The notes under the pieces were generated by a model. It worked only from the letters and a program-made list of their open reading frames with translations, ran no database searches and was not told the DNA's origin. This document shows positions 27,636 to 30,072 of a DNA stretch of 64,000 bases, in pieces (within the stretch, counting starts at the first letter, position 1; every line of letters begins with the position of its first letter). The position numbers and the translations under genes were made by a program. The DNA is from Candidatus Phyllobacterium onerii (GTDB lineage Bacteria; Pseudomonadota; Alphaproteobacteria; Rhizobiales; Rhizobiaceae), in contig NZ_JAQMHX010000001.1 in assembly GCF_028331445.1 (NCBI RefSeq), forward strand, positions 992,001-1,056,000, in the 5' to 3' direction.

Positions 27636-28265
27636 ATGAGAGACCCAATCGAAACAGCTATGAATCTCGTGCCAATGGTCGTCGAGCAGACCAATCGGGG
27701 CGAGCGGGCCTATGATATATTTTCGCGCCTGCTGAAAGAACGCATCATCTTTATAACCGGGCCGATCGAGGACGGCATGGCGACGCTTGTTTGCGCGCAG
27801 CTGCTTTTCCTTGAATCGGAGAACCCGAAAAAAGAAATCAACATGTATATCAACTCGCCGGGCGGTGTCGTCACCTCCGGCATGGCAATCTACGACACCA
27901 TGCAGTTCATCCGTCCAGCCGTGTCGACGCTGTGTTTCGGCCAGGCCGCATCCATGGGATCGCTGCTGCTGACCGCGGGCGAGAAGGACATGCGTTTCGT
28001 TCTTCCCAACGCCCGCATTATGCTGCATCAGCCGTCAGGTGGCTTCCAGGGACAGGCGTCAGATATCGAGCGTCATGCCCAGGATATCATCAAGATGAAG
28101 CGCCGCCTGAACGAGATTTATGTCAAACATACCGGCCGCGATTACGAGTCGATTGAACGTACCCTCGATCGCGATCATTTCATGACTGCGCAGGAATCAC
28201 TCGAGTTCGGCCTGATCGACAAGGTGCTTGAATCGCGTGCTGTGCTCGAAGGTGACAGTAAGTAA
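27636..28265 (+). CDS. clpP: ATP-dependent Clp protease proteolytic subunit
   Basis: A 209-residue ClpP, the serine protease that forms the double heptameric chamber and degrades proteins delivered by ClpX or ClpA. The triad is Ser106 (FGQAASMGS), His131 (ARIMLHQP) and Asp180 (LDRDHF), with the handle helix [15 protein letters not shown] between. It is encoded upstream of clpX and lon, the usual rhizobial order. The start has only a weak ribosome-binding site (CTGAGGCCCACCG). It ends before a strong palindrome at 28280 and so may be transcribed separately from clpX. Confidence 0.97.
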
Positions 28266-28279
28266 CCGGCTAAATCGCC

Positions 28280-28316
28280 CATCGGGGTCAAAAATGAAGT
28301 TTTTTTGACCCCGATG
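28280..28316 (+). terminator. Hairpin terminator after clpP
   Basis: CATCGGGGTCAAAAA and TTTTTGACCCCGATG form a perfect 15-bp stem with a 7-base loop, 14 bp after the clpP stop. The T-run lies in the 3' arm, so the hairpin could terminate transcription in either direction. Confidence 0.6.
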
Positions 28317-28386
28317 CGGACTTTCTGCCACACATGCAGCTTGCATAGAGCGGAGCAGACGTTACGTTAAGCTATTGGTCAGTTAG

Positions 28387-28679
28387 AGAAGCCTATTCTA
28401 CGAATAACTGTTCACCTCCAGCTTGAGCAAGTGGTGGATCTGATAGAGTGGGGCTGATGAAAGGAAGCCGTAGTGAGCGAAATTCCAATGATCCGAGGCG
28501 ACCGAGGCAGTTTATCAGACACGCTTTATTGCCGGGTCTGCGGGAAAAGTCAGCATGACGTTCGCAAGGTGATCGCTGGTCCGACTTTCGTTGTTTGCAA
28601 TGAGTGCATCGAAGTATTCGCAGGAATGCTTCGTGAGGAGGATGCTTCCTCAAAGTGAAAATCTGATGAAGGCTTGCCA
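28387..28679 (+). repeat. Tandem partial duplication of the clpX 5' region (upstream copy)
   Basis: This segment is homologous to 28709-28995. Both copies contain a leader beginning GAAGCCTA, a ribosome-binding site GAAAGGAA, and the ClpX zinc-binding domain. Alignment continues codon by codon past the stop of the small gene (TGA at 28656 aligned with GTG at 28972; then AAA, GAA and GGC match). The copies have diverged, so this is an old duplication with separate selection on the coding part. Confidence 0.85.
28473..28658 (+). CDS. Free-standing ClpX-type zinc-binding domain protein
   Basis: A 61-residue protein, GTG start, with GAAAGGAAGCC upstream. It is almost entirely the C4 zinc-binding domain of Clp[21 protein letters not shown] with Cys20, Cys23, Cys42 and Cys45, then a helix ending DASSK. 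In ClpX this domain dimerises and docks adaptors and some substrates. No AAA+ part is present, because an in-frame stop replaces a sense codon at the point where ClpX continues. Preservation of all four cysteines and the core despite DNA divergence argues that it is a working gene. It may compete for adaptors or mix with ClpX; that is inference. Confidence 0.85.
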
Positions 28680-28797
28680 GGAATTGAGGTGGCGCCATTA
28701 TTGAGCTAGGAAGCCTAATTTACGAACGACTAATCACTTCCACCTGGAGGAAGTGGCGGACCCGGGAAAGCAGGGCCGATACTGAAAGGAAACTGCA

Positions 28798-30072
28798 ATG
28801 AGCAAAGTCAGCAACGGCGGCGGCGATTCCAAGAATACGCTATATTGCTCGTTTTGCGGGAAGAGTCAGCATGAAGTTCGCAAGTTGATTGCGGGCCCGA
28901 CTGTTTTCATCTGCGATGAATGCGTCGAATTGTGCATGGACATCATCCGCGAGGAAAATAAATCCTCGATGGTGAAATCCCGTGAAGGCGTCCCGACGCC
29001 GCAGGAAATCATGGCTGTTCTCGATGATTATGTCATCGGTCAGAACCATGCCAAGCGTGTTCTCTCCGTCGCGGTGCACAACCACTATAAACGGTTGGCC
29101 CACGCATCGAAAAACAATGAAGTCGAACTCGCGAAGTCCAACATCCTTCTCGTTGGGCCAACCGGTTGCGGCAAGACCTATCTGGCACAATCGCTTGCCC
29201 GTATCATCGACGTGCCGTTTACGATGGCTGACGCGACGACGCTGACGGAAGCCGGTTATGTCGGCGAGGATGTCGAGAACATCATTCTGAAGCTGTTGCA
29301 ATCGGCGGACTATAATGTCGAGCGGGCGCAGCGTGGCATCGTCTACATCGATGAAGTCGACAAGATCAGCCGTAAATCGGACAACCCTTCCATTACACGC
29401 GACGTGTCGGGTGAGGGCGTGCAGCAAGCGCTGTTGAAGATCATGGAAGGCACCGTTGCTTCCGTACCGCCACAAGGTGGCCGCAAGCATCCGCAGCAGG
29501 AATTCTTGCAGGTCGACACGACGAACATCCTGTTCATCTGTGGTGGCGCGTTTGCCGGTCTCGACAAGATCATCTCGGCCCGTGGTGAAAAGACCTCCAT
29601 TGGCTTCAGCGCTGCGGTAAAGGCACCGGACGATCGTCGCGTTGGCGCGATCTTCCGCGAACTTGAGCCTGAAGATCTGCTGAAGTTCGGTCTTATCCCC
29701 GAATTCGTTGGTCGTCTGCCCGTTATCGCGACACTTGAGGATCTCGATGAGGTCGCGTTGGTGCAGATTCTGTCCGAACCCAAGAACGCTCTGGTTAAGC
29801 AGTATCAGCGCTTGTTCGACATGGAAAACGTCGAGTTGACGTTCCATGAGGATGCGCTGAAGGCCATTGCCAAGCGGGCAATTGCTCGAAAGACCGGTGC
29901 GCGGGGATTGCGATCGATCATGGAGAAGATCCTTCTCGACACGATGTATGAGTTGCCAACGCTTGATGGTGTCCAGGAAGTGGTGATCTCCGGTGACGTC
30001 GTGGAAGGCAACTCAAGGCCTCTGTATATCTATGCCGAGCGCAAGGAAGAAAAAGGCAATGTTTCCGCGTAA
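28798..30072 (+). CDS. clpX: ATP-dependent Clp protease ATP-binding subunit ClpX
   Basis: A 424-residue AAA+ unfoldase that recognises tagged or adaptor-bound substrates and feeds them to ClpP. It has an N-terminal zinc-binding domain (Cys17, Cys20, Cys39, Cys42), Walker A (GPTGCGKTY), the pore loop GYVGEDVEN, Walker B (VYIDEVDKI), the ClpP-binding IGF loop ([10 protein letters not shown]), and the sensor region [12 protein letters not shown]. Length matches rhizobial ClpX. GAAAGGAAACTGCA precedes the start. A hairpin CACTTCC/GGAAGTG (28735-28755) lies in its leader. Its 5' region was the source of the small zinc-finger gene upstream. Confidence 0.98.

Follow-up and report, generated by a model that had tools for sequence, protein, structure and literature searches.

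A free-standing gene that encodes a ClpX-type zinc-binding domain (ZBD) lies between clpP and clpX in Candidatus Phyllobacterium onerii, and by alignment it is shown to derive from a clpX 5′ end, carrying a copy of the clpX leader with it. The pattern of its mutations suggests that it has been maintained as a working protein and not as a dead fragment. The explanation we favour, tentatively and at somewhat less than an even chance, is that a functional free-ZBD gene arose from a tandem copy of the clpX leader and the first ~60 codons, that this duplication is older and was imported, and that the ZBD acts in trans on ClpXP.

All positions refer to the window, the whole 64,000-nucleotide stretch of DNA that was analysed, and the features of the locus are collected in Table 1. 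The genome spans 6.0 Mb in 65 contigs. One 2-kb stretch matches a Phyllobacterium plasmid at 90.6%, and records from other genera match elsewhere. The gene order is clpP, small gene, clpX and then lon (named by reading); clpP has a tblastn identity of 93.8–99.5% in 19 of 19 genus relatives, and the clpX product is 100% identical by tblastn to that of five of them (G004, G005, G006, G012 and G017). The gap between clpP and clpX measures 532 bp here versus 208–231 bp in all 19 relatives, so the extra unit comes to about 320 bp. The element upstream of it is present in a single copy, which places the start of the duplicated unit just downstream of the element; it is identical or nearly identical in the four closest relatives, is recognizable in most of the genus leaders aligned, and has no match to the sigma-70 consensus. 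An assembly artefact was rejected: the two copies are more than 20% different and the unit lies ~1.02 Mb into its contig (C1).

Table 1. Features of the clpP–clpX region, in window coordinates.
Feature	Position	Strand	Basis or remark
clpP	27636..28265	+	Upstream neighbour, named by reading; ORF list
Element CTTGCATAGAGCGGAGCAGACGTTACGTTAAG	28340..28371	+	Upstream of the duplicated unit, no repeat before clpX; putative promoter region for both genes
Leader (5′ UTR) copy 1, ribosome site GAAAGGAAG	28372..28472	+	Alignment with copy 2
Small gene, 61-aa free-standing ClpX-type ZBD, GTG start, TGA stop	28473..28658	+	Pfam, predicted model, selection tests
clpX-like codon remnant after the small-gene stop, then junction	28659..28694	+	15 matches to clpX within the first 21 bases
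Leader copy 2, immediately 5′ of clpX	28695..28797	+	Groups in trees with another genus branch
clpX, full length, 424 aa	28798..30072	+	NCBIfam NF003745, 684 bits

The sequence-only reading had described the gene at 28473 as the ClpX zinc domain alone, followed by a full clpX, and the family searches agree on both counts. In the small protein zf-C4_ClpX (PF06689) is the sole Pfam family (hmmscan; residues 19–55, 8e-12, 45.3 bits against a cut-off of 27), no AAA+ part is detected by Pfam, and the zinc cysteines, four in number, are C20, C23, C42 and C45 (CxxC…CxxC). The small protein is not a member of the ClpX family, scoring well under the cut-offs of the full-length families TIGR00382 (38.9 bits; cut-off 370.75) and NF003745 (36.5 bits; cut-off 359). 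An AlphaFold model built from a 3-row alignment has a mean pLDDT of 76.7 and a pTM of 0.54, with residues 21–50 at 87–93. Its best solved Foldseek matches are the ClpX ZBD entries 2ds5, 2ds6, 2ds8, 2ds7 and 1ovx (E 4e-4 to 1e-2), at target-based TM values of 0.85–0.90 for the four 2ds entries and 0.74 for 1ovx, and the full-length model 9a5x is matched as well. As modelled, the small protein has the ZBD fold, and it shares with the solved ClpX ZBDs (PDB 1ovx, 2ds5–2ds8) the four-cysteine motif, a ~40-residue core and the predicted fold. It differs from ClpX in possessing neither the linker nor the AAA+ module, and 19 of the 46 core residues are changed against its own clpX.

The origin of the gene can be read from the DNA alignment of the small-gene region with the clpX start, which covers the leader, the GAAAGGAA ribosome site and the core codons, as the sequence-only reading had claimed. 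Its further claim that similarity runs on past the small-gene stop also held, since the matches to clpX over the 21 bases at 28659–28679 (15, counted by eye) keep the same register. The two leaders differ at 22 of 82 aligned bases and the 46-codon core differs from that of its own clpX at 41 of 138 bases, and all four cysteines were kept despite this divergence. The statement that the gene arose from clpX itself stands in part: origin from a clpX 5′ end is well founded, while the clpX of this very genome is an uncertain source, given the synonymous differences and the tree position of leader copy 2 described below.

Whether relatives keep the gene had been proposed as a survey, and they do not: it was found in one of 20 genus genomes, this one, and in 0 of the 19 others, the four closest relatives included (G004, G017, G001 and G019; clpX dS 0.22–0.27). 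A tree of clpP and clpX joins this genome with these four, the branch to the rest being supported at 99%. The small gene nevertheless appears old by its synonymous sites. Where it and its own clpX encode the same residue by a degenerate codon, 9 of 27 codons differ. The clpX of this genome differs from those of the four closest relatives at 58–67 of 414–415 degenerate codons, rates at which 9 of 27 would be reached with P 0.009–0.022, whereas against the 15 other genus members 29–40% differ and the corresponding P is 0.39–0.80. The count fits the latter rates, which suggests that the small gene and clpX split at about the time of the deeper splits in the genus. The single leaders of the four closest relatives differ mutually by one base or one gap, while leader copy 1 differs from them at 16–17 of 81–82 aligned sites. 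Leader copy 2 groups with G002, G007, G018, G010 and G011 (UFBoot 92–93 in leader-only trees, 97 in the combined tree). Divergence on both flanks of the duplicated unit is ordinary. On these grounds an older duplication that arrived through recombination may fit better than a recent local one, an assessment that we regard as uncertain.

The main competitor, which we consider possible, is a recent local duplication whose product then diverged very rapidly as it was selected for a new role, its synonymous sites evolving fast too. Absence of the gene from every other genus genome is in keeping with it. So are the raw leader distances, by which copy 2 is no nearer to another branch (7 of 84–85 sites differ from the closest relatives, 8–9 of 85 from G007, G018 and G002). 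Leader-only trees, moreover, join G014 to G001 (77–80%), in conflict with the gene tree; such trees can thus put a leader in the wrong place, which together with the raw distances weakens the argument for import. The AGT state of one codon is confined to this genome's two copies, which counts against import and for local duplication. Local duplication is also favoured by the left-hand portion of leader copy 1, which is of the near-relative type. What speaks against a local event is that the small gene and its own clpX differ more at synonymous sites than this clpX does from those of its nearest relatives (P 0.0098 at the rate to G004, and 6.7e-5 at half that rate) and that leader and core have each diverged by more than 20%.

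If the upstream element holds the promoter, both genes would share a transcript. Alternatively, clpX alone could be served by a weak promoter-like match between it and the small gene (28674–28701; 1 found, 0.4 expected), contrary to a shared promoter. A further explanation is that the unit is mainly cis-acting, a translated leader ORF and a second 5′ UTR setting clpX expression with the peptide secondary. The small gene follows the conserved upstream element and precedes clpX, so that clpX messages started at the element would carry it. We nevertheless judge such a role improbable, as selection is visible at the protein level (see below), the folding of neither leader stands out from that of shuffles (z −0.68 and −0.50), and no terminator-like sites were found in 28230–28900.

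One detail of the leaders deserves separate mention. A hairpin (CACTTCC-loop-GGAAGTG, 28735–28755) recurs in many genus members despite fast change of the leader, and is altered in copy 1; it is possibly a regulatory structure of the clpX mRNA, though the whole leader does no better than shuffles.

Selection on the small gene was assessed from the 41 core differences, which fall 14/6/21 on the three codon positions (NG86 dN 0.25, dS 1.27); dN/dS between the small gene and clpX is ~0.2, with a dS that is near saturation and estimated on 46 codons. Neutral trials with 41 changes gave a mean of 24.8 residue changes, and 19 or fewer arose in 0.98% of them (P 0.0098); all four zinc cysteines were kept in 3.2% (P 0.032) and no stop appeared in 33%. 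Against a ClpX-ZBD profile the small protein scores 68.7 bits and its own clpX 109.1, whereas stop-free neutral decays with the same number of changes average 29.4 bits with a maximum of 63.4, and none of 3000 reached 68.7. When the decays were started from the relative G004, the score was reached per 3000 by 0 with 41 changes, 2 with 37, 8 with 33 and 67 with 29. The profile was built from 37 distinct ClpX-type ZBD segments out of 113 loci, 12 loci having been left out by hand beforehand (the two of this genome, free zinc fingers and weak or partial matches) and further loci dropped for not covering the segment; it still includes at least one row other than a normal ClpX ZBD. In an entropy test on nine distinct sequences the changes showed no clear preference for variable columns (P 0.087), and six columns invariant among those nine are altered (S18R, F19V, E26D, L30V, I38V and D48G, in clpX numbering).

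By these comparisons the small protein is shown to have kept far more of its ClpX-ZBD character than the neutral decay simulated here would leave. Its score, above all the neutral decays, indicates that most of its changes are of a kind tolerated in ClpX zinc domains and makes a dead fragment unlikely. The earlier description of a free-standing zinc-domain protein is thereby supported, and the neutral-decay and profile tests extend it to a gene probably under selection. A non-functional partial duplicate with a frame left open by chance, which would suit a truncated gene with a GTG start in one genome only, and a stop-free frame that is not rare by itself, is the least probable of the explanations weighed here, in view of the failure of all 3000 stop-free decays, and again of all 3000 from G004, to hold the ClpX-ZBD score and of the few changes at second codon positions.

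Beyond the genus, a sample of 297 family genomes (290 of which have a match; five belong to the genus, counting this one) gave no other match to the small gene above 57% identity among the matches listed. By per-genome match counts, six of the 297 have two matches, this genome among them. The other five were examined and rejected: G120 has a free zinc finger in a setting that reads as prophage-like, G158 a weak match of 203 aa, G255 and G260 second frames that are clpX-length or cut, and G297 a pair of partial matches, of which one lies at the end of a contig, interpreted as a split clpX. More than one match was likewise counted in eight of 160 phylum genomes, again with this one among them: the extra matches of G367 and G463 are other zinc-finger proteins, those of G413 and G417 lie at contig ends, that of G453 is below the cut-off, and in G312 two long frames of 417 and 438 aa were matched. 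In G414 a 97-aa clpX zinc-domain frame stops short of the AAA+ part, which lies in a different frame, and two contigs (L115 and L119) give the same hits; this broken clpX may reflect a split gene, a true frameshift or an error in sequencing.

GTDB r220 (84,980 species, contigs of at least 3,000 bases) was scanned with peptide patterns, which matched 97 times; a single locus was confirmed, and no ortholog in these species genomes. Because each pattern is an exact stretch of 8 residues, the scan may overlook an ortholog that has diverged. The confirmed locus (L051) shares CNECIEVF and was rejected, as it proved to be a clpX running off a contig end; the contig is labelled as a Thermococci archaeon and is possibly misbinned. 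No close relative of the small gene was confirmed in the viral contigs scanned. Matches were found in 40 phage records, all below 60% identity, and in 144 plasmid records, 142 of them below 60% and two at 60–80%; a plasmid DNA search with 28280–28800 returned one record, with 70 bases of a Providencia clpX. Import of the small gene from a phage or plasmid was rejected, with no confirmed viral relative and only low-identity phage and plasmid matches, and the resemblance of its leader to clpX leaders argues against a simple phage origin.

In the tentatively favoured explanation of an older, imported duplication, the copying event would predate the species and the unit would have entered by homologous recombination in the clpP–clpX gap. 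The small gene and clpX would be co-transcribed from one promoter upstream of both, and the small protein would fold as a zinc-bound, probably dimeric ZBD. It would then occupy adaptors such as SspB, in competition with ClpX, or by a second route may pair with ClpX's own ZBDs as mixed dimers; in the outcome adaptor-dependent degradation would be lowered and adaptor-independent degradation left alone. The response regulator CpdR of Caulobacter primes ClpX through the N-terminal domain of ClpX, making CpdR a natural candidate target of the small protein.

Adaptor titration of this kind is plausible by analogy with isolated ZBDs. ClpX zinc domains fold alone, can dimerize in isolation and are needed for adaptor interactions (PMC9035409). 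In a study of the Escherichia coli domain (PMC7226468), added ZBD at 5–20 µM inhibited RssB-mediated degradation of sigma-S by 0.6 µM ClpXP in vitro, an effect that required an 8- to 33-fold excess over ClpXP. The same source reports that ClpX is clipped within the N-terminal region, and ClpX without the ZBD is said to lose adaptor-mediated activity and reportedly to keep adaptor-independent degradation (PMC7226468). With these precedents, and with an SspB gene in this genome (157.8 bits), competition for adaptors would be the simplest mechanism. A bolder version, which we hold to be doubtful, is that of a natural “microProtein”: a selected copy of the adaptor-docking domain of ClpX, made together with its own leader and placed on the same transcript, so that every burst of clpX expression would bring a built-in competitor shifting ClpXP from adaptor-dependent to adaptor-independent substrates, as part of a module older than the species and mobile by recombination at the clpP–clpX gap.

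A close known parallel is the isolated E. coli ZBD supplied in trans, which like the small protein is a free ZBD, and which dimerizes and blocks adaptor-mediated degradation in vitro; that domain was laboratory-made and used in excess, whereas the gene described here is natural (PMC7226468). A literature search, which covered few subscription journals and reached some sources in part, found no account of a naturally occurring free zinc domain that acts on ClpXP.

Among phage families, phrog_6797 (annotated as of unknown function) and phrog_12435 (“protease”) match the small protein at 1.5e-14 and 2.2e-8. The former match, at 55.1 bits, covers only family positions 59–106 of 107, the first half being unmatched, and some phage matches fall under features not named ClpX, for example in P88 and D6. 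The small gene differs from these families as a tandem copy of the clpX start with its leader, beside clpX; a phage or prophage setting was not found for it, as it lies between clpP and clpX and the viral contigs scanned yielded nothing closely related to it. Three other cellular proteins (L120, L122 and L126, from G463 and G367) likewise have a ZBD without the ClpX motor, in differing architectures or settings: a 251-aa frame extended at its N-terminal side, a 134-aa frame whose tail reads as helix-turn-helix-like, and an 84-aa frame. The free zinc finger of G120 (L078/L121; L078:1495–1755, minus strand) has 86 residues, is of ClpX type, matches phrog_6797 and lies in the prophage-like setting already mentioned, in keeping with the notion that phages may carry ClpX zinc domains as decoys. 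Neither clpP nor a clpX motor was found in the ~3.1-kb loci of these four free zinc fingers (L120, L121, L122 and L126). Free ClpX-type zinc fingers are therefore already known, notably from phages, and what is new is one copied from clpX with its leader.

If the favoured explanation is true, the locus holds a natural protease regulator made from a piece of that same protease and set in single file with its target, and the block of adaptor delivery by a free ZBD seen in the laboratory would become a question for the living cell. We know of no tested function for the free ClpX-type zinc fingers of phages; by the same reasoning these may act on the ClpXP adaptors of their hosts.
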